NCBI RefSeq assembly: GCF_004116465.1
Contig: NZ_PDJV01000015.1
Coordinates: forward strand, 1-59,839
DNA length: 59,839 nucleotides
From: Arcobacter sp. F2176
Lineage (GTDB): Bacteria; Campylobacterota; Campylobacteria; Campylobacterales; Arcobacteraceae
Reading direction: 5' to 3'
In this document: piece by piece, positions 29,598-49,294 of the stretch
Position numbering within the stretch: position 1 is the stretch's first letter
Layout of the letters: each line of letters begins with the position of its first letter
Program-made: the position numbers and the translations under genes
The notes under the pieces: model-generated
The model's input: the letters and a program-made list of their open reading frames with translations, nothing else
Databases searched by the model: none
What the model was told of the DNA's origin: nothing

Positions 29598-29637
29598 TTC
29601 TTTTATCACTTAAATATTTTCGTACTTGTAGTTTTTT

Positions 29638-30300
29638 TTATAAACTCTCCAAAGAAGGAGCATTGAACCTATAAGTTTTATGTTGGACTTTTATTAAAAT
29701 ATTTTTCTCTGAAAGCTCTTTAAAGAGCTTTATCAAAGTTGGTTTTGATATACAAAACTCTTCCATAATATCTGTATATGAAGCTGTAAAATGACTTTCA
29801 TTATCTAAATTATTTATAATATGTTTTACAATAGCCACTTGCTTACTATCAGTAATTGCAGCAATTGTTCTTATAACACTTCTACTTTTTTGTATCTCTT
29901 TTTGTTGAACAATTGGCAATAAAATATCATGCAAAGTATTAAGTAACTCTTTTATATTTATCGGCTTAACTATATAATTCTCAACTTTTAGTTTTATTGC
30001 ATCAAGTAAATAATTTGTATCTGTATGAGCAGTTGTAAGAATAGTAGGAATATTAATGTTTTTGCTTTTTATATGATTTAAGAAATCAATTCCATTTTCA
30101 TTTTCTAATAAAATATCAGTAACTATAGCATCAACTTTTTTATTTAATAAAATTTCCATTGCTTCACATGAAGTTTTTGCAAGGAATATATTATTTACAA
30201 AATCTTCTAATACATCAGATGTATGTTTTAATAAATTTTCATCGTCTTCTAAATACAAAATATTAAAATCTCTTAAGATTCCTAAATCTCTATTTTTCAT
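29638..30300 (-). CDS. Response regulator (REC plus C-terminal helix-turn-helix)
   Basis: The 220-residue regulator has a receiver domain with acidic pair LEDD, phospho-acceptor Asp62 in AIVTDILLENENG and Lys in YIVKPINIKEL. The C-terminal HTH includes SYTDIMEEFCISKPTLIKLFKEL. Its ATG overlaps the stop of a degraded histidine-kinase end (30290), so it was once the third gene of a binding-protein/kinase/regulator operon. The intact paralogue of that kinase (38122-39705) has no regulator beside it, so this protein is its likely partner. The targets are probably the FDH genes. Confidence 0.88.
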   Translation of the reverse strand: MKNRDLGILRDFNILYLEDDENLLKHTSDVLEDFVNNIFLAKTSCEAMEILLNKKVDAIVTDILLENENGIDFLNHIKSKNINIPTILTTAHTDTNYLLDAIKLKVENYIVKPINIKELLNTLHDILLPIVQQKEIQKSRSVIRTIAAITDSKQVAIVKHIINNLDNESHFTASYTDIMEEFCISKPTLIKLFKELSEKNILIKVQHKTYRFNAPSLESL

Positions 30301-30475
30301 CTATGTCCTCATCATTTATTGGTATTTTAATTGTAAAGAGTGAACAATTATAATTTTGATTGGAAACTTTGTACATTCATAGTAATTGAGCCAAAAACTG
30401 TCTCCACTAATGACAGACTCACCACAAGATTTAATTATTCCAGCTTTTGGCACTGATTCCCAAGTTTTATAGTAA
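30290..30475 (-). pseudogene. Collapsed remnant of a histidine kinase and periplasmic-binding-protein gene pair
   Basis: Read on the minus strand, bases up to about 30390 translate to NQNYNCSLFTIKIPINDED, nearly identical to the C-terminus of the intact kinase at 38122. A block near 30398-30413 matches that kinase's H-box DNA (TGTCTCCACT). Bases 30412-30450 match the N-terminal DNA of the binding-protein gene near 40708-40745 (CAGACTCACC, AAGATTTAATTATTCC). Three ordered pieces of a 2.8-kb gene pair are thus packed into under 200 bases by internal deletions. Confidence 0.8.
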
Positions 30476-30637
30476 AACCCATGTATTCTTTTTCTTTAAA
30501 AATTAAATATTGTATATTTAAAATTGGAATTAGTACTAAAAGTTTTTAACCATTGTATATTTTACTAGATAAATAATTAAATACTGATATTAAATTTAAA
30601 GCTGTTTTGTTACTTAAATTAAAGATTTAATTAATTT

Positions 30638-30655
30638 GGTAAATTAAATTTTAAC
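30638..30655. promoter_or_regulatory. Palindrome type I, site 1
   Basis: GGTAAATTAAATTTTAAC follows the 18-base pattern GGTAAA-N6-TTTACC with one mismatch. Other copies are at 30693 and 40970. Confidence 0.4.
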
Positions 30656-30692
30656 TTTTAAGTGTAAGTTAAGAATTTTAGCAATAAAATTC

Positions 30693-30710
30693 GGTAAATA
30701 AAGTTTTACC
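30693..30710. promoter_or_regulatory. Palindrome type I, site 2
   Basis: GGTAAATAAAGTTTTACC keeps both 6-base arms and is followed by AAAG, as is the copy at 40970. Candidate site for the response regulator encoded at 29638-30300. Confidence 0.5.
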
Positions 30711-30812
30711 AAAGAGATTTTAAAAATTACTTTTTAAATGTGTGTAAAATTTATTTTATCTATGTGTCTATTTTATAGTATTTAAAGAGCGATTAAATCT
30801 TATCTTTTAATA

Positions 30813-30837
30813 CTAATATGCTATTTTTGCATATTAG
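30813..30837. promoter_or_regulatory. Palindrome type II, site 1 (upstream of FDH cluster 1)
   Basis: CTAATATGC - TATTTTT - GCATATTAG: perfect 9-base arms around 7 bases. The spacer is the reverse complement of that in sites 2 and 3. Confidence 0.65.
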
Positions 30838-30883
30838 ATATGGTAAAGAAAGATAAGCTTTTTTAAATTATTTTTTTCAAATA

Positions 30884-30908
30884 GTAATATGCAAAAATAG
30901 CATATTAC
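30884..30908. promoter_or_regulatory. Palindrome type II, site 2
   Basis: GTAATATGC - AAAAATA - GCATATTAC, 71 bases after site 1. Confidence 0.65.
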
Positions 30909-30953
30909 ATACATTAGAGAAAAGATAAACTTTTTAAATTATTTTTTTAAATA

Positions 30954-30978
30954 CTAATATGCAAAAATAGCATATTAT
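30954..30978. promoter_or_regulatory. Palindrome type II, site 3
   Basis: CTAATATGC - AAAAATA - GCATATTAT, 70 bases after site 2 and 34 bases before the first FDH gene, so a bound protein would block or place RNA polymerase. Confidence 0.65.
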
Positions 30979-31011
30979 AGATGTTAAAGAAAAAAATATC
31001 TGGAGGAAACC

Positions 31012-31218
31012 ATGAAAGATAATAGACGGAGTTTCATTAAAAAAACTCTGAGTGCAAGCGCACTTGTAGCTGCTGCTGGTGCAACTGTTGCAATGGCTAG
31101 TACTAAGAATAATACAAGTGATGGTTCACATGGTGTTGTCGTAGGAAAATCTAATAAAAAAGAGATTTTATACAAAGAGACAGCGGAATGGAAAGCTTTT
31201 TATAAAGCTAGTTATTAA
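31012..31218 (+). CDS. Formate dehydrogenase-region twin-arginine small protein, copy 1
   Basis: The 68-residue protein has a twin-arginine-type signal (NRRSFIKKTLSASALVAAAG) and ends KKEILYKETAEWKAFYKASY. It fits the known family of small TAT proteins encoded just before fdhA (TIGR02811-type). Their role is not settled; maturation or export of FdhA is likely. It is 13 bases upstream of fdhA and has a paralogue at 43557 with the same VVVGxSxxKEILYK core. Confidence 0.85.
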   Translation: MKDNRRSFIKKTLSASALVAAAGATVAMASTKNNTSDGSHGVVVGKSNKKEILYKETAEWKAFYKASY

Positions 31219-31231
31219 GGAGTAAAAGATA

Positions 31232-34078
31232 ATGGGCAAAAATGAACTTAACGACATATCTTTGAAAATGGGAAGAAGAAACTTTCTAAAACTTGCTTCA
31301 ATTGGTGCAGGAGTAGGAGCAACATCAATGTTCGCATCTACAGATACAGTAAGAAAAGCAACAGAAGATGAAGTAAAAAATCCTTTCCCAGGATCAAAAA
31401 AAGTCAAAACTATTTGTAGTATATGTTCTGCAGGATGTGGAATCGTAGCTGAAGTACAAAACGGAGTTTGGGTAAGACAAGATGTAGCACAAGACCATCC
31501 TATAAGTGAAGGAAGTCATTGTTGTAAAGGTATAGATCAAATAGATTTAGTAAAAAGTAAACAAAGAGTGAAACATCCACTTAAAAAAGTGGCAGGGAAA
31601 TGGCAAAGAATTTCTTGGAAACAAGCAATTGATGAAATTTCTGAGAAAATGTTAACTTTTAGAAAAGAAAATGGTCCAGATGCAGCAATGTTCTTAGGAT
31701 CAGCAAAATTTAATTTACAACAAGCTTTTTATTTTAGAAAGTTTGCTGCAATGTGGGGTACGAATAATATCGATCACGTAGCTAGAATTTGACATAGTGC
31801 AACTGTCGCCGGTGTGGCGAATACATGGGGTTATGGCGCTATGACAAATCATTTTGGTGATGTTGTCGGACACTCTAAAGCAATTTTAATGATTGGAGCA
31901 AATTCAGCTGTTGCAAATCCAATTGGATTTAAACATTTTCTTCAAGCAAAAGATAGAAATAATGCAAAACTAATAGTTGTTGATCCAGTATATACAAAAT
32001 CTGCAGCAAAAGCAGATCATTATTTAAGAATAAGAACAGGTACAGATGTAGCATTTATTTATGGACTATTACATATCATTTTTAAAAATGGTTGGGAAGA
32101 TAAAAAATTTATTGATAGTCGTGTATATGGTATGGAAGAAGTACGAGAAGAAGCTAAAAAATGGACACCAGAAGAAACAGCAGATGTTACTGGAATTCCA
32201 TCTGAAAAAATTATACACTTAGCAACACTTTTAGCAAAAACAAAACCAACTACAGTTGTTTGGGCGTTAGGTATTACACAACATAGTACTGGGACATCAA
32301 ATACAAGAATTCTACCAATACTTCAACTAGTATTAGGAAACATGGGTAAAGAAGGTGGAGGATGTAATATTATTAGAGGACATGATAATGTTCAAGGTTC
32401 TACTGATATGTGTTGTCTAGCCGATAGTTTACCAGGATATTATGGATTAGCTGAAGCATCTTGGAAATATTATGCGAAAGCATGGGGTGTTGATTATAAC
32501 TGGTTACAAGGAAGATTTCACTCACCAAAATGGATGAATGAAAAAGGATTCTCACTTGCTAAATGGTGGCAAGGTGTATTACAAGAAGAAAAAACATATT
32601 CTTCAAGTCCTATTAGAGCTTTATGGGTTCAAGGTACGGGTATTACATCAATGGCACAAACTGCTAAAGTAAAAGAAGCACTTGATAAATTAGACTTATT
32701 AGTAATTGCAGAGCCATTTGTAAATGAAGCAGCCGTAATAACAAATAAAACCGATAATATTTATATATTACCTGTAGGAACACAGTTTGAAACAGAAGGA
32801 AGTGTAACTGCAACAAATAGATCTTCACAATGGAGAAGTAAAATTGTTGATCCTCTATATGAAAGTAAAACTGACCATGAAGTAATGTTTGAATTTGCTA
32901 AAAAATTTGGTTTTTATGATGAATATGTAAAAGCAATGAAAATGAATGTTGTTGATGGTGAATATAAAGTAGTAAAAAAAGACTTTAATTGGCCAGATGA
33001 TGCATCAGATGAATTAGCAAGAACAGTAAAAACAATTGGACTTGGTGGATGGACAGCAAAAAGATTGAAAGAACATCAAGAGAATTGGCACTTATTTGAT
33101 CCAATAACTTTAAAAGGTTCGGGGAAAATGAAAGGTCAATATTATGGATTACCATGGCCAAGTTGGGACACAAAACACCCAGGAAGTCCAATATTATACG
33201 ATGTAGATACACCAATGTTAAAAGGTGGAATGGGATTTAGAAATAGATTTGGGTTAGAACATGATGGAGTTTCACAATTACCAGATGAAAGAGTAAGTGT
33301 AAAAGGTTCTAAAATCAAAGGTGGATATCCAGAAATTACAAAAGCTAATATAGAAAAAGTTTTAGGAATTACATTAACCCAAGAAGAAAAAAGAAAAATG
33401 GGTGCAAACTGGAAAGTTGACCTAAGTGGAATTATTCAAGAAAAATGTAATGAGGCTGGAGTATGTGTATATGGAAATGCAAAAGCAAGAGCAATTGTAT
33501 GGACATTCCCAGATCCAATACCAAAACATAGAGAACCAATTCACTCTCCAAGAATGGATTTAGTTAGAAAGTATCCAACATATGAGGATCAAACAAATAA
33601 CTTTAGAGTTGATGTGAGATTTAAATCAGAGCAAATGGCTCAAGATTGGTCAAAAGAGTTTCCTACTATGTTAGTAACTATGAGGGTAGTAAACCTAAGT
33701 GGAGCTGGTATGATAGAAAGAACAAGTAAATATCTCTCTCATATTACACCTGAAATGTTTGCAAACATAAATCCAGAGTTAGCAGCAGAACATGGATTAA
33801 GAGATGGTGATATGATGTGGTTACATTCACCTCAAGGAACAAAAATTAAAGTAAAAGCTCAATACAGTAATAGAGTTACGCCAGATAGAATTGCATTACC
33901 ATATAACTTTGCAGGTGTAATGCAAGGTTTTGATATGAGTGCAAATTATCCAGAAGGAACGAAACCTTATGCAATAGGTGAAAGTTCAAACACAATTACA
34001 AACTATGGATTTGACATCATTACTCAAATACCAGAATTCAATGCTGGATTATGTAAAATTGTGAAAGCAAAGGACTAG
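31232..34078 (+). CDS. fdhA: Formate dehydrogenase catalytic subunit FdhA, selenocysteine-containing, copy 1
   Basis: The gene is a single 948-residue reading frame crossing TGA at 31790-31792 (Sec187, context HVARI-U-HSATVAGVAN), the metal ligand of the Mo/W-bis-MGD site. It has a TAT signal (GRRNFLKLAS, residues 14-23) and an N-terminal [4Fe-4S] site CSICSAGCGIV...CCKG. Molybdopterin domains follow, including WALGITQHSTGTSN and GGGCNIIRGHDNVQGSTD. The C-terminal cap domain ends LCKIVKAKD. A SECIS hairpin follows the TGA. The enzyme faces the periplasm and oxidises formate to CO2, passing electrons to FdhB and FdhC. Confidence 0.95.
31806..31820 (+). promoter_or_regulatory. SECIS element of fdhA copy 1
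   Basis: TCGCC-GGTGT-GGCGA lies 13 bases after the UGA, the distance and GGU-type apical loop SelB needs. The second copy (44360) keeps the loop and swaps the C-G pair for T-A, so the stem covaries. Confidence 0.8.
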
Positions 34079-34081
34079 GAG

Positions 34082-34684
34082 ATGAGTGAAATGGCAAGAA
34101 TGAAATTCTATTGTGATGAAGATAGATGTATTGAGTGTTTTGCTTGTACAGTTGGTTGCTCCGAAGCACATGAACTACCAACAGGTATAAGTAGAAGAAA
34201 AGTAATAACATTAAACGAAGGTATTGAAAATTTAGAATATTCATTATCAATAGCTTGTATGCATTGTACAGATGCACCATGTGAACAAGTATGTCCTGTG
34301 GATTGTTTTTACATAAGAGAAGATGGAATAGTACTACACGATAAAAATAAATGTATCGGATGTGGATATTGTTTATATGCATGCCCATTTGGAGCACCAC
34401 AATTCCCACGAGATGGAGCATTTGGAGCAAAAGGAGCAATGGATAAATGTACAATGTGTGCAGGAGGACCATTAGAAACAAACAGTGAACATGAAAGAGA
34501 ACTTTACGGACAGAATAGAATAGCAGAAGGTAAAGTACCAATGTGTGCAGCAGTATGTTCTACAAATGCATTATTAGTAGGAGATTCACAAAAAGTTTCT
34601 GAAATATTTAGACAAAGAGTTCTATCAAGAGGACATAACCATGCCGCTACAACAAGAGCATGGAGTTCAGCATACAAATCATAA
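34082..34684 (+). CDS. fdhB: Formate dehydrogenase iron-sulfur subunit FdhB, copy 1
   Basis: The 200-residue protein holds four ferredoxin-type cysteine sets: CIECFACTVGC, CMHCTDAPCEQVCPVDC, CIGCGYCLYACPFG and CTMCAGG...CAAVC, enough for four [4Fe-4S] clusters. It relays electrons from FdhA to the membrane cytochrome FdhC. It follows fdhA by three bases, with its stop overlapped by an alternative FdhC frame. It is closely similar to the copy at 46619. Confidence 0.94.
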   Translation: MSEMARMKFYCDEDRCIECFACTVGCSEAHELPTGISRRKVITLNEGIENLEYSLSIACMHCTDAPCEQVCPVDCFYIREDGIVLHDKNKCIGCGYCLYACPFGAPQFPRDGAFGAKGAMDKCTMCAGGPLETNSEHERELYGQNRIAEGKVPMCAAVCSTNALLVGDSQKVSEIFRQRVLSRGHNHAATTRAWSSAYKS

Positions 34685-34697
34685 AGAAAGAGTTAAT

Positions 34698-35591
34698 GTG
34701 AAACTAAAAAATATATTAATAATCTTTTTAGCACTAAGTTCACTGGCATTTGCCAGTGAAAGTGCAATATTTGGGAAAGATTTAATTCCAAATATTTTAG
34801 CATATGATAAAGAAGGATCTTTACATTTAGGTAAATGGTTTACTTTATTACAAAGCACATATTTTAAACCTATATTCTTAGGCGTATTAATAGGAGTACC
34901 AACAGTCTTTTTTATACACTATAAAATTATAGGACCAATGATTTTTTCTCATGATAGAAAAAAGATTTATGTTTTTTCTATCTTTAATAGAATAATACAC
35001 ACAATAGCAGCAATAGCATTTATCTTAATTGTCCCAACAGGATTTGCAATCGTATTTGGAACAACATTAGGTGGTGGAGAATTTATAAGATTTTGTAAAG
35101 ATGTTCATTCAATAGCAACAATACTATTTGTGATTTCAGTAATTCCTATGCTAATGATGTGGTTTAAAGATATGCTTCCAACAAGTGATGATATAAAATG
35201 GATGATGATACTTGGTGGATATTTAAACAAAAGAAAAGACCCTATTCCAGCAGGAAGATTTAATGCTGGACAAAAGATGTGGTTTTACATTTGTACATTT
35301 GGTGGAATCGTAATGATAATCACAGGTGCAATAATGTTTTTCCAAGATTTTAAAATAGAATTTATAGCTTCACTTGGATTAACACAAATTGATTTATTAA
35401 GAGCAAGTGCAATTATTCATAATATATTAGGATTTGCAGTTGCAGCATTATTTATGACACATATTTATATGTCAGTATTTGCAATTAAAGGTGCAATTCA
35501 TAGCATAATAAGTGGTTATAAAGAAGAAGAAGAAGTAGAAATTCTTCATAGTACTTTTTACAAAGAACTTAAAAAAGATAAAAAACTTTAA
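34698..35591 (+). CDS. fdhC: Formate dehydrogenase cytochrome b subunit FdhC, copy 1
   Basis: The 297-residue membrane protein has four main TM segments and conserved histidines (FNRIIHTIAAIAF, CKDVHSIATILFV, SAIIHNILGFAVAALFMTHIY) for two b hemes. It passes electrons to menaquinone. I start at GTG 34698, not ATG 34641. GTG follows AAGAAAGAG and leads into a signal peptide (KLKNILIIFLALSSLAFA) that matches copy 2. The ATG would add 19 charged residues overlapping fdhB. A terminator follows. Confidence 0.92.
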   Translation: MKLKNILIIFLALSSLAFASESAIFGKDLIPNILAYDKEGSLHLGKWFTLLQSTYFKPIFLGVLIGVPTVFFIHYKIIGPMIFSHDRKKIYVFSIFNRIIHTIAAIAFILIVPTGFAIVFGTTLGGGEFIRFCKDVHSIATILFVISVIPMLMMWFKDMLPTSDDIKWMMILGGYLNKRKDPIPAGRFNAGQKMWFYICTFGGIVMIITGAIMFFQDFKIEFIASLGLTQIDLLRASAIIHNILGFAVAALFMTHIYMSVFAIKGAIHSIISGYKEEEEVEILHSTFYKELKKDKKL

Positions 35592-35604
35592 AAACTTTAA
35601 AATT

Positions 35605-35629
35605 CCTCTCTTTTTTGAGAGGTTTTTTT
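35605..35629 (+). terminator. Terminator between fdhC copy 1 and the polyferredoxin gene
   Basis: CCTCTC-TTTTTT-GAGAGG followed by seven T. It separates the enzyme subunits from the accessory genes. Confidence 0.85.
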
Positions 35630-35656
35630 CTTATATTTATAAAAGAAAGGCTAAAT

Positions 35657-37336
35657 ATGCAAGAGTTTGTATATCATAACCCTGATGGGTTGGATTTCCC
35701 TTTATCTGAAAGTATATTTGTTACAAATGATATAGAGAAAACAAAGGATATTAAATTCTTAATTTCAAATAGTGCTGAAGTAGATAGCGAAGTAAGTGCT
35801 GACGAAATTGATTTTTATATTAAAAATACAAAAGATTCGATTTCAAAAAAAATACAAAATGTTCATAAACTTTATGAAATTGCTGCAGTTAAATTTGATA
35901 ATGCTCAAGATGTCATTTATACACAAAAAATAGGAAATAAATTATTATTAATTGCAAATGATGATGATTCAAAAGAATTTATTTCAAAAACAGACTCAGA
36001 TGAATTTGATATGTTTAGAATAAGTGAAGATATAATTAAATCAATTTCTGGTCATATTGGTAATTTAACAGTTATTGTGGATGATGAGGGCAAAGATGTC
36101 ACTTTAAAAGTTGATCAAATTGTATGGTTTGATATTAAAGAATTAGGATTAAGACAAAGTGGAGGATTTGATCCAAAAGGATCTTCTATTGATGAAGTGC
36201 TAAGTGTTTTAAGAAAAAATGTTGAAGAGTATGAGTATAAAAAATTCATTACATACGATGCTAATATATGTCAATATCATGAAAGAAGAGAAGAAGTTTG
36301 TGGAAGATGTGAAGAAGTATGTCCCACTACTGCAATTATAAAAATTGATGAAAAAAAACATTTGGAATTCTCACAAATTGATTGCCAGGGATGTGGTGGA
36401 TGTATTTCAATTTGTCCTTCTGGAGCGCTTGATTATGCCCCAATTAATAAAAATTCTATATATGAAATGGCAAAAAAGTTTAGAGGTAATATTCCTTTAA
36501 TTCTTCCCCAAAAGATAAATCTTTCACAATTAAATATAACACTAAAAGAAAATGTACTTCCTTTTAAAATAGATGGAGAAAAGTTTTTACATGAAACTTC
36601 ATTCTTAACAATTCTACAAGAAAGTGGTTCTCAAGTTATATTTTATACTGACTTCTTATCTAAAGGAAGTACAGATGCTATTAGAATTTTAAATGATATT
36701 TATACTAAAAAATATGGCAAAAAAGCTATATATGTAGCAATAAATGAAGATGAGTTATCACAAGCCCTAGAAGAAGTTGATTTAATTGATGGTTCTACAT
36801 TTTCATATAATCAAGAAGATGAAAGGAAAAGAGAAGCTTTTGCTGTTAGATTATCATCTCTTGTGGGAAATGATGATTTAGGTATTGTTAAAACTGGTGA
36901 AAATGTTCATTATGCAAAAGTAAATATAAATCAAGATAACTGTACCTTATGTTTATCATGTGTTGGAGCCTGTAATGTCGATGCCCTTAAGGCATATCCA
37001 GAAGATAATACACTAAGATTAAATCCATTAATTTGTACGGGATGTGGATATTGTGAACTTTCATGTCCAGAAAAAAATTGTTTAACAATTGAGCAAGATA
37101 TAATTGAATTAAATAGCCAGTCGTTTTTAGAAAGAGTAGTAGCTCAAGATGAACTTTTTGCATGTACTGAATGTGGTAAAGAGTTTGCAACTAAAAAGGC
37201 AGTAGAAAAAATCGCAACTATAATGTCTCCAATTTTTGCAAATAATCCTATAAAACAAAAAACTTTATATTGCTGTGAAGATTGTAAACCAAAAGTTATG
37301 TTTGCAAATGATGAAATAAGGAATCAAAGAGTATGA
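35657..37336 (+). CDS. Polyferredoxin-like 4Fe-4S protein of FDH cluster 1
   Basis: The 559-residue cytosolic protein (no signal) has four ferredoxin motifs: CGRCEEVCPTTAI (with an upstream Cys), CQGCGGCISICPSGAL, CTLCLSCVGACNV and CTGCGYCELSCPEKNC. It ends with a zinc-ribbon-like CTECGKEF...CCEDC. ATG 35657 is chosen because MQEFVYHNPDGLDFP matches the paralogue at 41002; the upstream in-frame ATG at 35615 overlaps the terminator. Such proteins accompany fdh genes in Campylobacterota and may supply or divert electrons or help cofactor insertion. Exact role unknown. Confidence 0.8.
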   Translation: MQEFVYHNPDGLDFPLSESIFVTNDIEKTKDIKFLISNSAEVDSEVSADEIDFYIKNTKDSISKKIQNVHKLYEIAAVKFDNAQDVIYTQKIGNKLLLIANDDDSKEFISKTDSDEFDMFRISEDIIKSISGHIGNLTVIVDDEGKDVTLKVDQIVWFDIKELGLRQSGGFDPKGSSIDEVLSVLRKNVEEYEYKKFITYDANICQYHERREEVCGRCEEVCPTTAIIKIDEKKHLEFSQIDCQGCGGCISICPSGALDYAPINKNSIYEMAKKFRGNIPLILPQKINLSQLNITLKENVLPFKIDGEKFLHETSFLTILQESGSQVIFYTDFLSKGSTDAIRILNDIYTKKYGKKAIYVAINEDELSQALEEVDLIDGSTFSYNQEDERKREAFAVRLSSLVGNDDLGIVKTGENVHYAKVNINQDNCTLCLSCVGACNVDALKAYPEDNTLRLNPLICTGCGYCELSCPEKNCLTIEQDIIELNSQSFLERVVAQDELFACTECGKEFATKKAVEKIATIMSPIFANNPIKQKTLYCCEDCKPKVMFANDEIRNQRV

Positions 37337-38037
37337 AAACTGAAGAATTAAATAAAGCAAGAGCAATCTATTATGGATTGTTCTGTTCATTATTTTCATT
37401 TATAGATGATAATAAAGAGTATAAAAATATAGAAAAAATAATTGAACTTTTATCAAGTAGTCCAATTGATGAACATAGTAAAGAAGCATTAAATAAAATG
37501 AATGAATTTTTAAAAGATAAAGGTTTTGATGGATTAAAAGAAGAAAACAATCAAGTTTTCTTTAGTCCAAGTACAAGTTATATTCCTGTAACAGCTTCTT
37601 ATTATAATGAAGATAGAGATGATGGTAAAAAAAGAGTTGAAATGACTAATATAGTATTAAAATCAACTTTCAGAAAAAATACAATAAGTTTTAAAGATGC
37701 AGAAGATCATATCTGTTTTATATTGAACTTTATTCAAAAACTAATCGAAGAAGATTTCAAAAATATTGAAAACCCCTTAGTCTTAGAGTGTTTTTCAAAT
37801 ATTTTAAATGGATTTATTGATTTATTTATTGATGATGTTTATAAACATGAAGAGAGTGATTTTTATAAAAACAGTGCAATATTATTAAAAGTTTTTATTG
37901 AATTAGAAAGAGCATTATTAAATGTAGAAAAACCTAAAGAACATAAAAAAAGAACTCAACATGAGTTATTTCATAAAAAAAGAAAAGAGTTCGTAAAAAG
38001 AGCAAAAAGAAATTTTGACGAAGTTACAAGTCTTTAA
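37333..38037 (+). CDS. TorD/DmsD-like chaperone for FdhA, cluster 1
   Basis: The 234-residue all-helical protein matches TorD-type redox-enzyme maturation chaperones, with NKARAIYYGLFCSLFSFI, FFSPSTSYIPVTASYYNED and KKRVEMTNIVLKS. It should bind the TAT signal of FdhA until its cofactor is in place. It overlaps the polyferredoxin stop by four bases (ATGA), so the two are coupled. The C-terminal tail is rich in Lys/Arg. Confidence 0.78.
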   Translation: MKTEELNKARAIYYGLFCSLFSFIDDNKEYKNIEKIIELLSSSPIDEHSKEALNKMNEFLKDKGFDGLKEENNQVFFSPSTSYIPVTASYYNEDRDDGKKRVEMTNIVLKSTFRKNTISFKDAEDHICFILNFIQKLIEEDFKNIENPLVLECFSNILNGFIDLFIDDVYKHEESDFYKNSAILLKVFIELERALLNVEKPKEHKKRTQHELFHKKRKEFVKRAKRNFDEVTSL

Positions 38038-38052
38038 TAGATTTCTTTTAAA

Positions 38053-38082
38053 GTTTAAATATGCAAAAAAGCATATTTAAAC
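38053..38082. terminator. Convergent terminator palindrome containing an ATATGC core
   Basis: A perfect 12-base arm pair, GTTTAAATATGC / GCATATTTAAAC, with a 6-base A loop, then ATTTTTT. It lies between convergent genes. Its centre resembles the type II palindromes but its spacer is one base shorter. Confidence 0.7.
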
Positions 38083-38121
38083 AAATTTTTTATTTACAAA
38101 CCCTTTTAAAATACTTAAGTT

Positions 38122-39705
38122 TTATTCTGCGTTTTTGTCTTCATCATTTATTGGTATTTTTATTGTAAAAAGTGAGCAATTATAGTTTTTATTGTCCTTA
38201 ATTTTATGTACAATATTTTTATAACTAATTGAACCATTTATATGTTTTTCAATAATTTGTCTTGACATATAAAGCCCTATTCCCGTACCTGCACTTTTGT
38301 ATTTTGTTGTATAATAAGGTTCAAAAATTTTTGGAACGATTTCTGGAGGAATTCCACCTCCATTATCTAACATATTAATCATTGCTCTATTTTTATATTT
38401 ACTAACCATAATTTTAATAATTCTATCATTTTTATCAACATTAGAACATAAAGCATCTTTTGAATTTGAAATAATATTTAAAAATACATGGGAAATCTCA
38501 TTATAAAAACTATTTAAAGTAATTTTATCTTTTATTATAAGTTCAATCTTGATATTCTCCTTTGAAAGAAGATATTTTGATAACTCAATTGAGTGCTCAA
38601 TACACTTTTCTATATCAAATTTTATTTTAGATTTATCAGGTGAAAAGAAGTTTTTAAAATCATCTAAAGTATTTGACATATTATTAGCAAGTAATAAAGC
38701 ATCATTTACTTTATCATCAATAAACTCATCAGTCAATTTACCTAATTGCATTTTTGTTTGAAAACTCTGCACTATCATTGTAATTGACCCTAAAGGTTGT
38801 CTCCACTGATGAGCTATATTATTAAGCATCTCACCTAAGCTTGCAAATCTAGCTTGTTGAAACATAATAATATCTTTCTTTCTATTTTGTTGAACTTCTT
38901 TTGAAATCTTTTTCTCTAAAAGTTCATTTAAAGTTATTAACTCTTTAGTTTTTTCATCAACATTTTTTTCTAGCGAATCATTTAATTGTTTAAAATCATT
39001 AGTAACAAAAATTGATAAAAGTATGGAAAATACAAAAACTAAAAATATTGAAATAATAGAAAAAATGATAATAGTATTAAATACTTTTTGAGTATCATTT
39101 TTTTCATTTATTGCAATTGATAAATCATAGTTTATCAAACTTGTTATATATATCGATATGGAATTAATCTCTAAATTTAAATCATCTAATTGCTCAGAAT
39201 TAGGTTTAGTGTGGATACTATTTAAAGCACTTTCAATACTTGACATTTTTGTATTTATATTTTTAATAATATTATTTTTTAAAAGTTCACTATCTATATC
39301 TTTACTTCTTGATATTATAAACTTTTTTATAAAAGAAGTAATCATCTCATCTGTATTTAAAGCACTTTGTATTCTATATAATTCCCAATTCTTTCTAATT
39401 ATTTGTTTTCCCAAAATTAATACTTCATTGGCTTGTTTAAAATTGAGATTTCCACTATCCAATTCTCTTAGGGTATCCTGTATATTAATGACATAAGTAT
39501 CTTTAATATTTTCTAATTTTATTAAAGAGATTGTTCTTTTGTTAAAAAATTTATCAAAGTCTTCCTTTATAATAAAAATAGAGATTTGAGATAACAAGAC
39601 TATACAAATCATTCCACTTGCAATAATAAAGATTAAAAAATAAGTTTTATATGAAAAGCTTAACTTTTCAAAATAATTTGTTATTTTTGAAAATATATTT
39701 TTCAT
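38122..39705 (-). CDS. Sensor histidine kinase paired with a periplasmic binding protein
   Basis: The 527 residues comprise TM1 (about 18-38), a helical periplasmic region of about 165 residues, TM2 (about 208-232), a coiled coil, the H-box NIAHQWRQPL (His299), an N-box NIISNSKDAL and a G-box GTGIGLYMSRQI. It overlaps the binding-protein gene by one base. The likely input is the liganded binding protein, in TorT/TorS style. No response regulator follows; the collapsed paralogue at 30290 still abuts one, which is the likely partner. Confidence 0.88.
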   Translation of the reverse strand: MKNIFSKITNYFEKLSFSYKTYFLIFIIASGMICIVLLSQISIFIIKEDFDKFFNKRTISLIKLENIKDTYVINIQDTLRELDSGNLNFKQANEVLILGKQIIRKNWELYRIQSALNTDEMITSFIKKFIISRSKDIDSELLKNNIIKNINTKMSSIESALNSIHTKPNSEQLDDLNLEINSISIYITSLINYDLSIAINEKNDTQKVFNTIIIFSIISIFLVFVFSILLSIFVTNDFKQLNDSLEKNVDEKTKELITLNELLEKKISKEVQQNRKKDIIMFQQARFASLGEMLNNIAHQWRQPLGSITMIVQSFQTKMQLGKLTDEFIDDKVNDALLLANNMSNTLDDFKNFFSPDKSKIKFDIEKCIEHSIELSKYLLSKENIKIELIIKDKITLNSFYNEISHVFLNIISNSKDALCSNVDKNDRIIKIMVSKYKNRAMINMLDNGGGIPPEIVPKIFEPYYTTKYKSAGTGIGLYMSRQIIEKHINGSISYKNIVHKIKDNKNYNCSLFTIKIPINDEDKNAE

Positions 39706-40850
39706 TATTTTATCTCAACAAACTTATTTTTTTTGAATTGAAAAAAATAAGTTTTATTTAAAAGTTGGGAACCTTTAAACTTTAAAGGAATACCTTTTAA
39801 AAGATTACTTGGAGTACTTTGTAAAGAAGAAATTAACTTTTCTCTTGTTCTCTCACCCTTTATTCTAGATATAGCATTAACTAAAACTTTAGATGCTAAA
39901 AATGATTCAAGAGAAATAAATCCCAACTCAGCTTCTGGATGATATTTTTTCATTAAAGTTTGATACTCTTTTATTATTGGAATAGAAGTATCTGTATAGC
40001 TAGGAACAACTTGAGAAAATATTAAATCTTTAGTATCTAAATTATAATTTTTTAACTCTTTTACCATTGCATTAGCATCACCAAATGAGATATTACAAAA
40101 AATTGTATTTTTAAAGTTTTTATTAGCTTTAGCTTTTTTTACAAATAAAGCATTGGCTTGATAAGAACCAATCATAATAATTGCATCTGGTTTAGCATCT
40201 TTTATCTCATTAAAAGCATGTGTAATTGATAAAGTATTTCTTTTATAAGAACCTTCTGCTGCTAAAGATAAATTTCTACTTCTCAAACTTTTTAAAAGTG
40301 AAATATAACCCTCTTCTCCATAATCATCATTTTGGTAAAAAACAGCAATCTTTCTTAAATCTCTTTTATCATGTAAATAATAAAGCAAACCTTCAATCTC
40401 TTCTTTATAAGAACTTCTAAAATTAATGAAATTTTCGTTTTGATTATTTCTTAAAAATGATGCTCCGGAAAAAGGAGCAATAAAAGGTATATTTTCATCG
40501 TAAATAATTGGCAAGATTTTTTTAATAGTAGGAGTACCAACAAAACCAAATAAGGCAAAGACTTTATCTTCATAAATTAATTTATTAGTATTATCCTTAG
40601 TAAGTTCTGGTTCATACTTATCATCATAGGTTATAAACTTTATTTTATTATTACCTAATAGTTTTTTTTCATTGACATATTTAAAATAAACATCTGCACC
40701 TACAATAACAGACTCACCCCAAGATTTAATTATTCCTGTTTTAGGCAATGAAGAACCTACGACTATGGTATTTTTTGTAAAGACTTCATCTTTAAAATAA
40801 TAAAAACAAATAAGAAGTATAAATAGTATTATAGGAATTCTTTTAATCAT
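39705..40850 (-). CDS. Periplasmic ligand-binding protein (Peripla_BP_6/branched-chain amino acid-binding type)
   Basis: The 381-residue protein has an N-terminal membrane anchor or signal (MIKRIPIILFILLICFYYF). A type I periplasmic-binding fold follows, with VVGSSLPKTGIIKSWGES, ALFGFVGTPTIKKILPI and PFIAPFSGASFLRN. No ABC permease genes are near, and the gene is fused translationally to a kinase, so it is a sensor protein, not a transporter part. ATG 40892 would add 14 hydrophobic residues; ATG 40850 is preferred because it gives a normal signal sequence. Ligand unknown; formate or a related acid is only a guess. Confidence 0.82.
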   Translation of the reverse strand: MIKRIPIILFILLICFYYFKDEVFTKNTIVVGSSLPKTGIIKSWGESVIVGADVYFKYVNEKKLLGNNKIKFITYDDKYEPELTKDNTNKLIYEDKVFALFGFVGTPTIKKILPIIYDENIPFIAPFSGASFLRNNQNENFINFRSSYKEEIEGLLYYLHDKRDLRKIAVFYQNDDYGEEGYISLLKSLRSRNLSLAAEGSYKRNTLSITHAFNEIKDAKPDAIIMIGSYQANALFVKKAKANKNFKNTIFCNISFGDANAMVKELKNYNLDTKDLIFSQVVPSYTDTSIPIIKEYQTLMKKYHPEAELGFISLESFLASKVLVNAISRIKGERTREKLISSLQSTPSNLLKGIPLKFKGSQLLNKTYFFQFKKNKFVEIK

Positions 40851-40969
40851 GCAAAAGTTTACTAAAATAATTAAAAAAATTAGCTTTACCATAAAGTAAC
40901 ACCCAATATTAAAAAGTTAAATTATATTTTACCTTTTAAGTTAAATTTAATTGTAAATAACTAAAATTA

Positions 40970-40987
40970 GGTAAAATATATTTTACC
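40970..40987. promoter_or_regulatory. Palindrome type I, site 3, in the divergent kinase/polyferredoxin promoter region
   Basis: GGTAAAATATATTTTACC is a perfect 18-base palindrome just before polyferredoxin copy 2. It matches the dyads at 30638 and 30693, so the two FDH clusters and the sensor operon may share one regulator. Confidence 0.55.
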
Positions 40988-41001
40988 AAAGGGCATAGTT
41001 T

Positions 41002-42702
41002 ATGCAAGAATTTATTTATTACAATCCTAATGGACTTGAGTTTCCAGTTAGTGATGAAATACTAGTAACTACTGATCTTAATGAAGTTCAAGATAAATCA
41101 TTTTTAATATCAAATACAAACCTTATAAATAGTGAATTAACAGCAAAAGAAGTTGATTTTTACATTAAAAATTCAAAAGATAACTTATCAGAAAAAATCC
41201 AAAATGTATCAAAACTTTATGAAATAGCAGCAACAAAATATGATTTTGCACAAGATATTTCTTATGACCAAGAAATATCAAAAGATATTCTTTTAATAGC
41301 TAATAACAAAGAAGACCATGATAATTTTGTTGCAAAAACTTTAAATGAAGATTTCAATCTTTTTTATATAAAAGAAGATATATTAAAATCAATATCAGGA
41401 CATATTGGAAACTTAAGTGTTGTAGTTGATGATGAAGGGAAAGATGTAACTTTAAATGTCTCTCAAATAGTTTGGTTTGATGCTAAAGAAGAAGGATTAA
41501 AACAAAGTGGAACTTTTGACCCAAATAAATTTTCATTAGAAAATATAATAAATACTCTAAAAGATAATATTACTTCATACTCATATAAAAAGTTTACTAC
41601 TTATGATAAAAACATCTGTCAATATGATGGAAGAAGAGAAGAAATTTGTAGCAAATGTGAAGAAGTTTGTCCAACCGTTGCTATTGTTAAAGATGACAAA
41701 ACAAAAACCTTAGAATTTTCACAGATTGATTGTCATGGTTGTGGTGGTTGTATATCTGTTTGTCCAAGTGGAGCACTAGATTATGCTCCATCAAATAAAG
41801 AATCAATTTATGAATTAAGTAAATTCTTTAAAAATAAATATCCTTTAATTCTTCCTTCAAAAATGGAACTTGATAATTTAGATGTTCCATTAAAAGAAGA
41901 TGTTTTACCTTTTGCAATAGAAGGTGAAAAATTCTTACATGAAGAAACACTTTTAACACTTCTTCAAATGTCAGGTTCTCAAGTTGTCTTTTATACTGAT
42001 TTTATCTCAAAAGGAACTGGTGATTCAATTAGAATATTAAATGATATTTATCAAAAAAAATATGCAAAAGATGCAATTATTGTTGCAGCAAATGAGGAAG
42101 AACTAATTATTGCATTAGAAGAAGTATCTTTTATAGAAGGTTCTTATTTTAATTTCAATCAAGATGAACTTAAAAAAAGAGAAATCTTTTCACATAGATT
42201 ACAAAAAATAGTTGGTGAAGATAACTTAGGTGTTGTTAAAACAGGCGAACATGTACATTATGGACTGGTAAAAGTAAATGAAGCAAACTGTACATTATGT
42301 TTAGTTTGTGTTGGTGCATGTAATGTAGATGCACTACAAGCAGATGCCACTGATAATACTTTAAGATTAAATCCAAGTTTATGTACATCATGTGGTTACT
42401 GTGAAGTTTCATGCCCAGAAGCTGATTGTTTAACAATTGAAAGAGATGTAATTCATTTAGAGCCTACTTGGTTTAAAGAAAACATCTTAGCAAAAGATAC
42501 TCTTTTTGCCTGTGTTGAGTGCGGAAAAGAGTTTGCCACAACAAAATCAATTGAGAAAATAGCAGGAATAATGGGTCCAATTTTCTCAAGTGATCCAGTA
42601 AAGGAGAGAAGTTTATACTGCTGTGCTGATTGTAAACCAAAAATAATGATGCAAAGTTATTTTGATAAAAAAAATGAAGGACAAAATGATGCAAGACAAT
42701 AA
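41002..42702 (+). CDS. Polyferredoxin-like 4Fe-4S protein of FDH cluster 2
   Basis: The 566-residue paralogue of the protein at 35657 has the same cysteine sets (CSKCEEVCPTVAI, CHGCGGCISVCPSGAL, CTLCLVCVGACNV, CTSCGYCEVSCPEADC, CVECGKEF...CCADC). In this cluster it comes first, before the chaperone, whereas in cluster 1 it follows fdhC. It begins 15 bases after a perfect palindrome. It is cytosolic; the function is the same unknown accessory role. Confidence 0.8.
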   Translation: MQEFIYYNPNGLEFPVSDEILVTTDLNEVQDKSFLISNTNLINSELTAKEVDFYIKNSKDNLSEKIQNVSKLYEIAATKYDFAQDISYDQEISKDILLIANNKEDHDNFVAKTLNEDFNLFYIKEDILKSISGHIGNLSVVVDDEGKDVTLNVSQIVWFDAKEEGLKQSGTFDPNKFSLENIINTLKDNITSYSYKKFTTYDKNICQYDGRREEICSKCEEVCPTVAIVKDDKTKTLEFSQIDCHGCGGCISVCPSGALDYAPSNKESIYELSKFFKNKYPLILPSKMELDNLDVPLKEDVLPFAIEGEKFLHEETLLTLLQMSGSQVVFYTDFISKGTGDSIRILNDIYQKKYAKDAIIVAANEEELIIALEEVSFIEGSYFNFNQDELKKREIFSHRLQKIVGEDNLGVVKTGEHVHYGLVKVNEANCTLCLVCVGACNVDALQADATDNTLRLNPSLCTSCGYCEVSCPEADCLTIERDVIHLEPTWFKENILAKDTLFACVECGKEFATTKSIEKIAGIMGPIFSSDPVKERSLYCCADCKPKIMMQSYFDKKNEGQNDARQ

Positions 42703-43459
42703 AACTGTAAATAAAGCAAGAGCTCTTTATTACAATCTATTCGAAAACTTCTTTTTTGTAAGCACAAAAAGTGAAAACTATTTTGAATTGGTTAGATTAA
42801 TAAATATTTTAAAAGAGAATCCATTAGATGCAGAGTCTGGTCAAGCATTGAATAATATTTCTGAAATGCTAGATCCTACTTCTAATGTAGCTTTAGTTCA
42901 AGAGTATGATGATTTATTTCATAATCCTTTGACAAAAAAAGTAAGAATAACTGCATCATACTATGATGAAGGTGTTGAATCTGGTAAAAAAAGAGTTGAA
43001 ATGATTCAATTCGTTGCAAAAACAAAATTAAGACGAGATGAAAAAAACTATTTTGAATATGAAGATTCAGTAGCTTTTATTTTTTCATTGATGGCTTCAT
43101 TATGTGATGCAATTGCAAATGGTGAAAAAGAGTATGAAAATACTGTTCATTGTATCTTTGCAGAAATTATAAATGAATTTATAGAAGAGTTTGCAAAAGA
43201 TGTTTTTGAACATAATAGTTCGAAAATATTCAAAGAAGTAATAATAGTTTTACACTCATTTATTGCCTTTGAAAGACTATATTTAGATGTTTCAAAAGCA
43301 CCTAAAAAAGAAAGAATTATTAAAAAAGTTGAAGTTGAAGAAATCTCTGAAGCAGAATTAGAAAGAAGAGCAAAAAACAAAGCTCTTAAAGCTTTAGGGC
43401 CAAAAAAAGAAGAGAGTTGTCCTATAGATAATGTCTCTGCTTCTGAAACAGAAGTCTAA
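42689..43459 (+). CDS. TorD/DmsD-like chaperone for FdhA, cluster 2
   Basis: The 256-residue protein is paralogous to 37333-38037 (NKARALYYNLFENFFFV, HNPLTKKVRITASYYDEG, KKRVEMIQFVAKT). I start at ATG 42689, 7 bases after GAAGGAC; ATG 42686 is equally possible. The gene overlaps the preceding stop by 14 bases. The C-terminus is a charged extension with a lone Cys (EESCPIDN). Two hairpins separate it from the next gene. Confidence 0.78.
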   Translation: MQDNKTVNKARALYYNLFENFFFVSTKSENYFELVRLINILKENPLDAESGQALNNISEMLDPTSNVALVQEYDDLFHNPLTKKVRITASYYDEGVESGKKRVEMIQFVAKTKLRRDEKNYFEYEDSVAFIFSLMASLCDAIANGEKEYENTVHCIFAEIINEFIEEFAKDVFEHNSSKIFKEVIIVLHSFIAFERLYLDVSKAPKKERIIKKVEVEEISEAELERRAKNKALKALGPKKEESCPIDNVSASETEV

Positions 43460-43479
43460 AAAAGGTTTTCCTTTTTTAG
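43456..43479 (+). terminator. Hairpin at the end of the chaperone gene
   Basis: CTAAAAAAGG-TTTT-CCTTTTTTAG overlaps the stop codon. No clean T run follows, so it is a weak terminator or attenuator. Confidence 0.55.
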
Positions 43480-43519
43480 AGATTTTATAAAGAGAGTTTA
43501 ACTCTTTTTATAAAGTCTC
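43479..43519 (+). other. Long RNA hairpin before the FDH cluster 2 enzyme genes
   Basis: An 18-bp stem runs from GAGATTTTATAAAGAGAG to its complement CTCTTTTTATAAAGTCTC, 38 bases before the GTG start. It may be a processing or stabilising structure that uncouples enzyme from chaperone expression. Confidence 0.6.
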
Positions 43520-43556
43520 TTAATAAAGGGGCTTAATTTCTATAAGGAGGTCAGTC

Positions 43557-43769
43557 GTGCAAAAAAGCAGAAGAGAATTTGCAAAAAAAACTGCAATGAT
43601 TACTGCGGGTGCTGTAGCTGTTACAGGTACTACTGTATTGGCTGCTACTGGCAAATCATCAGGTCAAGATGATAGTAATAATGGTGTTGTTGTGGGAGAA
43701 TCTAGAAATAAAGAGATTCTTTACAAAAAAACTGCGGCTTGGGAAGAATATTACAAGAACGCAAGATAG
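43557..43769 (+). CDS. Formate dehydrogenase-region twin-arginine small protein, copy 2
   Basis: The 70-residue protein starts at GTG after a strong AAGGAGGTC. It has the signal SRREFAKKTAMITAGAVAVTG and the conserved end NKEILYKKTAAWEEYYKNAR. It is paralogous to the protein at 31012, which fixes the start. It lies 16 bases upstream of fdhA copy 2. Confidence 0.85.
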   Translation: MQKSRREFAKKTAMITAGAVAVTGTTVLAATGKSSGQDDSNNGVVVGESRNKEILYKKTAAWEEYYKNAR

Positions 43770-43785
43770 TATATAAGGGTATAGT

Positions 43786-46608
43786 ATGTCAGCAAATACA
43801 TATGAATCTCTAAATGCAAAAGTAGGTAGACGGTCATTTATGAAAATGGCTGCAGTTGCTACTGCATTTGGAGTGACATCATCTTTTGCAAGTACTACAG
43901 CTACAAGAAAAGCAACTGAAGAAGAGATTAAAAATCCTTTTCCAGGTTCAAAAATGGTTAAATCCGTTTGTACTGCTTGTTCTGTAGGTTGTGGTGTTAT
44001 AGCAGAAGTTCAAAATGGTGTGTGGGTAAGACAAGAAGTCGCTCAAGATCACCCTGTATCACTTGGAGGGCACTGTTGTAAAGGTGCAGATATGATTGAT
44101 ATGGTTAGATCAGAAGTTAGACTTAAACATCCAATGGTGAAAAAAGATGGTCAATGGAAAAGAATCACTTGGGATGAGGCTTTAGACGGTATTGCTTCAA
44201 AACTTGAAGATTTAAGAAAAAAAGATGGACCAGATTCAACAATGTTTTTAGGTTCAGCAAAATTCAATAATGAGCAAGCTTATTATTACAGAAAATTTGC
44301 TGCAATGTTTGGAACTAATAATATAGATCACCAAGCTAGAATTTGACATAGCTCAACAGTTGCCGGTGTGGCAAATACATGGGGTTATGGTGCTATGACA
44401 AATTCTTTAGGAGATATTCAAAACGCAAAAGCGATTATAATTTTTGGAGCGAATCCTGCGGTTAACCACCCAGTTGGATTTCAACATTTTTTAAAAGCAA
44501 AAGAGAGAAATAACGCAAAAATTATTGTAATAGATCCTAGATTTACTAAAACTGCTGCAAAAGCAGATTTATATGCACAAATTAGACCAGGAACTGATAT
44601 TCCATTTATGTATGGAATGTTAAAAATTATTTTCGAAAATGGTTGGCATGACAAAAACTTTATTAATGATAGAGTTTATGGTATGGATGAAATCATGAAA
44701 GAAGCTAAGAATTGGCCTATTGAAAGAGTTGCAGATGTTACAGGTGTAAAAGCAGATTTAATTGTACAAATTACAAAATTATATGCAAAAAGTACGCCAG
44801 GAACATTAATTTGGGCTATGGGTTTAACTCAACACTCAAATGGAACATCAAATACAAGAATGGCTCCAATCTTACAACTTGCTCTTGGAAACATGGGTCT
44901 AGAAGGTGGTGGAACAAACATCTTAAGAGGTCATGATAATGTTCAAGGTGCGACTGACTTTGGTTGTTTAGCTGATTCATTACCAGGATATTATGGTTTA
45001 TCTGAAGGTTCATGGAAATATTTTGCTAATGCTTGGGGTGTAGATTTTGATTGGCTACAAGGTCGATTTAAAGATGCTTCTTGGATGGGTAAAAAAGGTT
45101 TCTCATTAGCTAGATGGTGGGCTGGTGTTTTAGGTGAAAATCCAGGTGAAGATGCAATTCATAATGCAGGTACAAGATTAAAAGCTTTAGTTGTTATGGG
45201 TAATGGTATTACATCAACAGCTCAAACAAAAAAAGTAAAAGAAGCAATTGATAATTTGGAAATTGCAGTGTTCTGTGATCCTTTTGTAAATGAAGGTGCT
45301 ATTATAACTGATAAACAAAATGATGTTTATATTTTACCAGCAACTACTCAATTTGAGACTTCAGGTTCATTAACTGCTACAAATAGATCAGCTCAATGGA
45401 GAGACAAAGTTGTTGAACCAATGTATGAGTGTAAAGCAGATCAAGATATTTTATTTGAACTTGCAAAAAGATTTGGATTCTATGATCAATTTGTTGCTGG
45501 AATGGGAAAAGGTAAAGACTTTACTTGGCCTGAAGATGCAACTAATGAGATAGCAAGAACAATTAAAACTATTGGATTAACTGGTTGGACTGCTGATAGA
45601 TTGAAAAAACATCAAAAAAATTGGCACATGTTTGATCAAGTTACAGGTAGAGGTTATGGAGAAATGACTGGTGAGTACTATGGTTTACCATGGCCTTGTT
45701 GGACAACATCACATTCTGGAAGTCCTGTTTTATATAATATAAACAGATCTGTAAAAGAAGGTGGTATGGGATTCAGAAATAGATTTGGATTAGAACATGA
45801 TGGTGTAGATTTACTTGCAGGTAAAGGAAGTGCACCTAAAGATTCAAATAATAAAGATGGTTACCCAGAAATTACAAAAGATAATATTGAAGAAGTATTA
45901 AAAATCAAGTTAACAGCTGAAGAGAAATCTAAAATTGGTAAAAACTGGAAAGTTGATACATCAAATATTATTGCGGAAAAATGTATGGAAGCTGGAATTG
46001 CTCCTTATGGAAATGCTAAAGCGAGAGCTAAAGTTTGGGGATGGGCAGATGAAATTCCTAAACATAGAGAACCATTACATTCACCAAGAACAGATTTAAC
46101 AAAAGAATATCCAAGTTTTGCAGATAAACCAAATCACTGGAGAGTTGATACAAGATATATTTCTGAGCAAAGTAAGCAAGATTGGGCGAAAGATTTCCCA
46201 ATTAACTTAATTACAGGAAGACTTGTTAACTTAAATGGTGCAGGTATGGAAAATAGAGCAAGTAAATATCTTGCTAAATTAAGTCCAGAGATGTTCTGTG
46301 ATATTAATCCAGATTTAGCTGGTAGATATGGTATTAGAGATGGTTCAATGATGTGGATTCATTCACCTCAAGGAACTAAGATTAAAATAAAAGCTCACTA
46401 TTCTTATTCAGTTAGTCCTGATAGAGTATTTATTCCTATACACTTTGCTGGTGTTATGGAAGGTGAAAGTTTATTACATAAATATCCTGATGGAACTGCA
46501 CCTTATGCAATTGGGGAAAGTGGAAATACTGTTTCTAACTACGGTTATGACATTGTTACACAAATTCCTGAAACAAAAGGTGGATTATGTCAGATAGAAC
46601 AAGCGTAG
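43786..46608 (+). CDS. fdhA: Formate dehydrogenase catalytic subunit FdhA, selenocysteine-containing, copy 2
   Basis: The 940-residue frame crosses TGA at 44344-44346, again codon 187 (DHQARI-U-HSSTVAGVAN). TAT signal GRRSFMKMAA, [4Fe-4S] ligands CTACSVGCGVI...CCKG, and molybdopterin motifs GGGTNILRGHDNVQGATD and IPIHFAGVM are kept. It is clearly homologous to copy 1 along its whole length but differs in the loop after about residue 570, where it lacks several residues. As in copy 1, it should act in the periplasm. Confidence 0.95.
44360..44374 (+). promoter_or_regulatory. SECIS element of fdhA copy 2
   Basis: TTGCC-GGTGT-GGCAA begins 13 bases after the UGA. The loop is identical to copy 1, and the stem has a compensating base-pair change. 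Confidence 0.8.
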
Positions 46609-49273: not shown

Positions 49274-49294
49274 AATATGCATATTTCGCATATT
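49274..49294. promoter_or_regulatory. Palindrome type II, site 4 (upstream of fdhD)
   Basis: AATATGC - ATATTTC - GCATATT has the same arms and 7-base spacer as sites 1-3, and ends 11 bases before the fdhD start. Confidence 0.65.

Follow-up and report, generated by a model that had tools for sequence, protein, structure and literature searches.

Most histidine kinases co-evolve with a response regulator to which they are linked, and many genomes are rich in unpaired ones; how such pairs separate is an open question. That question is raised by a locus of Arcobacter sp. F2176 (assembly of 3.27 Mb in 98 contigs), where the regulator and the kinase of what appears to be one sensor system lie 8 kb apart, as the original prediction had stated. 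A literature search, covering mainly journals outside subscription, turned up neither this sensor system nor such a split. The window analyzed here is the whole of contig 15 (59,839 nucleotides), from a single strain of the host species. It was compared with one locus from each of 20 Arcobacteraceae genomes, among them an A. nitrofigilis-like genome (G001), which is the nearest relative examined (99.0% rpoB identity), and the next species of the same genus (G002, 96.4%).

The response regulator, RR1 (29638-30300, minus strand), has a receiver domain and a RepL-like winged-helix C terminus (Pfam Response_reg, 2.4e-19; RepL, 3.6e-5) and is 93% identical to its G001 counterpart. Upstream of it are approximately 700 bases without a gene, followed by the TAT-leader gene and fdhA of a first fdh operon, in the order TAT-fdhA1-fdhB1-fdhC1-ferredoxin-TorD. 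Past this cassette lie an intact sensor kinase gene, HK2 (38122-39705, minus strand; HATPase_c, 1.3e-16), and an intact binding-protein gene, BP2 (39705-40892, minus strand; Peripla_BP_6, 1.2e-42). These are followed by the start of a second fdh operon (41002-46608, plus strand; ferredoxin-like, TorD-like, and fdhA2), which is the usual neighbor of the sensor operon across the family. Both fdhA genes carry an in-frame TGA near codon 187 (31790-31792 and 44344-44346), presumably a selenocysteine codon, although no Rfam model matched a selenocysteine element at fdhA1 at the gathering score (29600-41500 searched).

At the level of genes this is a two-component system with a binding protein: a regulator with a receiver domain, a HATPase kinase with an H-box, and a periplasmic binding protein, which form one gene row in relatives. 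Purifying selection acts on both the regulator and the intact kinase, with dN/dS of about 0.09 and 0.11, respectively. TorT/TorS/TorR is likewise a three-gene sensing system composed of a periplasmic binding protein, a kinase, and a regulator. Our locus resembles it in layout, with the binding-protein gene placed immediately before the genes for a membrane kinase and a DNA-binding regulator, and the probable target enzyme operon alongside. It differs in having a Peripla_BP_6 binding protein, a kinase in which no receiver domain was detected, and a RepL-like winged-helix end on the regulator; we claim no membership in that family.

The ancestral gene order is settled by the relatives. Binding protein, kinase, and regulator are all present in 20 of 20 Arcobacteraceae genomes and contiguous in 19, bearing out the predicted order binding protein-kinase-regulator. 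Kinase and regulator are likewise adjacent at 13 additional loci from the named collection and in six of six genomes that belong to the order but not to the family. The single exception, G024 (L043:1394-6109), has a 5-kb block between the regulator and the kinase, which encodes a putative ABC transporter of the polyamine type together with a glycerophosphodiesterase (GDPD); only a few bases of the kinase end are left there, and the separation is an independent one. As the left flank of RR1 is syntenic with both G001 and G002, the regulator is at its ancestral place.

Between RR1 and the first fdh operon is a real gene fossil, of an already known kind but unusually legible. It had been proposed, from the window alone, that short pieces at 30290-30475 match in order the 3' end, the H-box, and the 5' region of the intact pair at 38122-40892. 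We scored local alignments against 500 dinucleotide shuffles, and the similarity stayed above chance beyond the first 80 bases. Piece 1, the kinase 3' end (30290-30362, minus strand), aligns at 30291-30362 to 38123-38194 with 61 of 72 bases identical (score 89; shuffle maximum 39). Piece 2, the H-box region (WRQPLGSITMIVQSFQ; 30353-30408, minus strand, frame-shifted), aligns at 30366-30408 to 38764-38807, which encodes the HQWRQP H-box (score 36; shuffle mean 19 and maximum 32). Piece 3, an Arcobacter-type N-terminal region of the binding protein (PKTGIIKSWGESVI; 30409-30456, minus strand), aligns to 40704-40751 of the intact copy (42 of 48 identical, score 66; shuffle maximum 34). All three keep the order and strand of the intact pair, but they are short (43-73 bp) in an AT-rich genome, and piece 2 is marginal on its own. 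An independent DNA search with 30290-30700 as query found, in the same genome, the end of the kinase gene at 85% and the start of the binding-protein gene at 88%, as well as two kinase spots in G001 (93% and 80%) and in G002 (84% and 83%), the second spot in each being the orthologous H-box.

The reading frame of the fossil is destroyed. On translation, its three pieces fall into three different reading frames with a switch at each junction, leaving no ORF, while the intact gene stands at the same place in relatives. The parent sequences of pieces 1 and 2 share about 9-10 nt of microhomology (TTTTGATTG) at their junction, and those of pieces 2 and 3 share about five bases (AATGA). The junctions thus coincide with spots of parental resemblance, a pattern that deletions at short repeats would leave. 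The stop codon of the fossil kinase (TAG, 30290-30292) still lies inside codons 3-4 of RR1; the overlap with the regulator start, which had been proposed, measures 11 bases and is seen in relatives too. Consensus promoter matches near the fossil were no more numerous than shuffles yield. Piece 1 matches the G001 kinase end at 66 of 71 positions, but this closeness is partly forced by the regulator start and its ribosome site, and thus does not date the copy. We also dropped piece 1 as proof of orthology to A. nitrofigilis: once the last 20, regulator-constrained bases are left out, A. nitrofigilis is separated from the fossil by two differences over about 47 sites, and from the intact copy likewise by two. 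For piece 3, the intact pair is a slightly closer match than G001, and the G002 binding protein agrees at only 38 of 48 positions.

The remains extend farther than had been proposed, to about 30553. A fourth piece (30484-30553, minus strand; ATG at 30551-30553, followed by in-frame stops) resembles a decayed start and signal-peptide region, and its best in-register matches are mostly Malaciobacter-type binding-protein starts, with our strain's own intact copy at background. The surrounding stretch, 30484-30860, aligns with an intergenic stretch of G014 (295 of 391 positions) and into the coding start of the G014 binding protein, but only weakly with the promoter on the intact side of its own locus. 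We consider the assignment of piece 4 to a Malaciobacter-type binding protein moderately supported. Because piece 3, only 28 bases away, is of Arcobacter type, the binding-protein fossil looks like a hybrid of native and Malaciobacter-type sequence, with a recombination point at about 30457-30484, again with moderate support. A Malaciobacter-like donor for the entire fossil was considered and dropped, as piece 3 has no match to the donor type.

The first fdh cassette (31011-38037, plus strand), which encodes the TAT-leader protein, fdhA1, fdhB1, fdhC1, a ferredoxin-like protein, and a TorD-like chaperone, has a similar affinity. In FastTree protein trees its ferredoxin-like, TorD-like, fdhC1, and fdhA1 products group with those of the Malaciobacter-like genomes G014 and G030, to which its gene order and promoter are also closest. 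“Malaciobacter-like” is an approximate label, given on the strength of gene order and promoter, which the M. halophilus locus (L069) shares. Together these comparisons suggest that the cassette was acquired, is of Malaciobacter type, and arrived with its own promoter. The palindrome AATATGC-N7-GCATATT has four copies genome-wide, all of them within the window: three copies (30815-30835, 30886-30906, and 30956-30976) are in tandem repeats of about 70 bp upstream of the TAT leader and fdhA1, and the fourth (49274-49294) closely follows the gene for the fdh2 gamma subunit; a similar sequence is found upstream of the G014 TAT gene. In G014 itself, two tandem TAT-fdhA1-B-C copies surround a ferredoxin/TorD pair (L047, 4334-16387), which indicates that the fdh locus is often rearranged. 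In G001, the predicted operator of the regulator (see below) is followed by an apparent ferredoxin-like gene start (L039, about 15979-15600), the gene being otherwise missing before TorD1; this is possibly another collapsed gene at the locus.

Which of the two sensor pairs, then, belonged to RR1? Silent-site distances (dS) between our strain and G001 are 0.15-0.52 for the seven flanking genes common to the three genomes and 0.42 for RR1. The intact kinase, by comparison, is at 0.89 from G001 and 0.96 from G002, and the intact binding protein at 0.90 and 0.99, although the kinase and binding-protein sequences diverge widely among all three genomes of the genus, and values near 0.9 approach saturation. 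Since the intact pair, unlike RR1 and the flanks, is equally distant from both relatives, the simplest reading is that HK2-BP2 is not the vertical partner of RR1. By position, the fossil would be the regulator's own native sensor pair (HK1-BP1). The original prediction, otherwise largely right, is therefore amended in this respect: it recognized two copies of the sensor operon but took the fossil for the second, a place that the intact pair appears to hold.

If so, the intact pair might once have had a regulator of its own, and a likely remnant of one, RR2, overlaps the stop codon of the intact kinase (38096-38132, minus strand). This stretch, ACGCAGAATAAA-ACTTAAGTATTTTAAAAGG, resembles the regulator starts of relatives (ATGCAAAATAAAGATTTAAATATATTACAAGA), with the ATG changed to ACG and a one-base deletion. 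Anchored at the stop codon, it has a mean score of 17.3 against 21 regulator starts, a value reached by 16 of 524 post-stop stretches; 15 of these are true kinase-regulator overlaps of relatives, leaving one of about 509 unrelated stretches. Free local alignment against whole regulator genes gave no significant signal, and for this reason we rate support for a collapsed second regulator start (about 36 bp, interrupted by a gap) as moderate. Thus, a remnant is clear at one copy (HK1-BP1) and moderately supported at the other.

We consider it likely that two full sensor operons once flanked the acquired fdh cassette and then underwent complementary loss, RR1 and HK2-BP2 being kept. The starting state would have been a tandem of two complete modules, each divergent: one with RR1-HK1-BP1 and fdh1, the other with RR2-HK2-BP2 and fdh2. 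Recombination inside the binding-protein gene would have linked the Malaciobacter-type cassette to the native sensor operon, and a single crossover with a donor molecule, either circular or tandem, that carried RR-HK-BP-cassette would yield the present order. Deletions at short repeats, in an order that we infer, would then have reduced HK1-BP1 to a few hundred non-coding bases that now form a leader before RR1, and left HK2-BP2 beside the remnant of RR2. Loss of one regulator and one sensor pair may have been allowed by redundancy, if one regulator served both operons. More tentatively, and with the odds somewhat against it, the present two-component system was assembled from two halves, a native regulator and an imported kinase and binding protein, through such complementary loss, and the fossil records the event that fixed the cassette: when the native sensor pair was deleted, a direct repeat able to loop out the new cassette would have gone with it, which would have stabilized the cassette. 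In its collinear, disrupted remains at the ancestral place, its intact paralog elsewhere, and its short-repeat deletions, the locus resembles bacterial pseudogene remnants and operon splits after duplication. It differs from the typical case in that the two decayed halves appear complementary, with a foreign metabolic cassette between them.

Other histories would dispense with a foreign sensor pair, or with a former pair altogether. The native operon might have been duplicated in tandem within the lineage, with or around the insertion of fdh1, one copy then decaying; the closeness of piece 3 to the strain's own intact binding protein fits such a duplicate, and the kinase tree, which joins the intact copy with G001 (0.957), favors it. 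Nevertheless, a within-lineage duplicate should not be equally distant from G001 and G002 at silent sites when RR1 and its flanks are not, nor does it explain a promoter and fourth piece of Malaciobacter type, and we regard this history as unlikely. That clean splitting of regulator and kinase does happen is evident from G024, and the cassette could in the same way have been inserted between RR1 and its kinase, the pieces being an insertion scar or by-product of transposition. However, they derive from three places spread over 2.6 kb and stand in the correct order, which calls for a full former copy. Neither a transposase gene among the ORFs at the junctions nor terminal repeats were found, the repeats in 30476-31020 being those of the fdh1 promoter, also present in G014. 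We thus hold a simple insertion to be very improbable.

Even less credible is that the short region is a functional element under selection, for instance a small RNA or a leader with a regulatory role. Its location between a promoter-bearing intergenic region and the start of RR1 would suit such a role, as would the ribosome site of RR1 within the last kinase bases, but 29600-41500 contains no Rfam match, and the pieces carry independent substitutions, frameshifts, and stops. Furthermore, the element is absent from relatives: none of those examined has the short version alone, the intact operon being kept instead, as anticipated for a true fossil.

On the favored reading of complementary loss, HK2 and RR1 would still form one pathway, acting on a common operator before both fdh operons. 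The palindrome GGTAAA-N6-TTTACC occurs exactly twice in the window, once in each fdh promoter, and in none of 100 shuffles. The site on the fossil side (GGTAAATAAAGTTTTACC; 30693-30710) has a half-site about 55 bp away, and both it and the site on the intact side (GGTAAAATATATTTTACC; 40970-40987) are conserved in relatives. Among the intergenic regions between the binding-protein gene and fdh in 20 relatives, 15 contain the exact palindrome and the rest variants, usually with a half-site 52-55 bases away; the G014 fdh locus has three sites. We infer that this palindrome is the operator of the regulator, and its presence at both surviving promoters suggests that the two fdh operons probably share one regulator. 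As to what the binding protein senses, a natural guess would be formate or selenium status.

Only two further copies are found in the genome, for a total of four. One is upstream of an Fe-S subunit gene, with a site also near the G030 homolog. The other (G000:C35:3473-3490; L108:1974-1991) is upstream of fdhT/yedF, in a gap shared with the divergent typA, and both gene products exceed the curated NCBIfam cut-offs (598 versus 350 bits and 143 versus 79 bits). The equivalent site in G001 is at 3154740; the G001 fdhT itself (L109:2118-3318) is interrupted by a frameshift that puts residues 1-58 in one frame and residues 57-401 in another. All six Arcobacteraceae genomes with fdhT have the upstream site (one with a single mismatch), and it is absent from both genomes with fdhT outside the family. 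In Campylobacter jejuni, fdhTU are selenium accessory genes (Shaw et al. 2012, as cited in PMC6682613), whose role is described there as post-transcriptional (PMC6682613). The fdhT/yedF pair of our strain is comparable, and lies downstream of the same palindrome as the fdh operons; in contrast to the C. jejuni account, the transcriptional tie to a two-component system is our own prediction.

The locus therefore preserves, still legible in its DNA, an intermediate in the separation of a kinase from its regulator, so that duplication around a cassette, deletion at short repeats, and complementary retention become testable. It also provides a testable regulon for an apparently uncharacterized sensor system of the Campylobacterales, in which a single palindrome stands before the fdh operons and the selenium gene fdhT.
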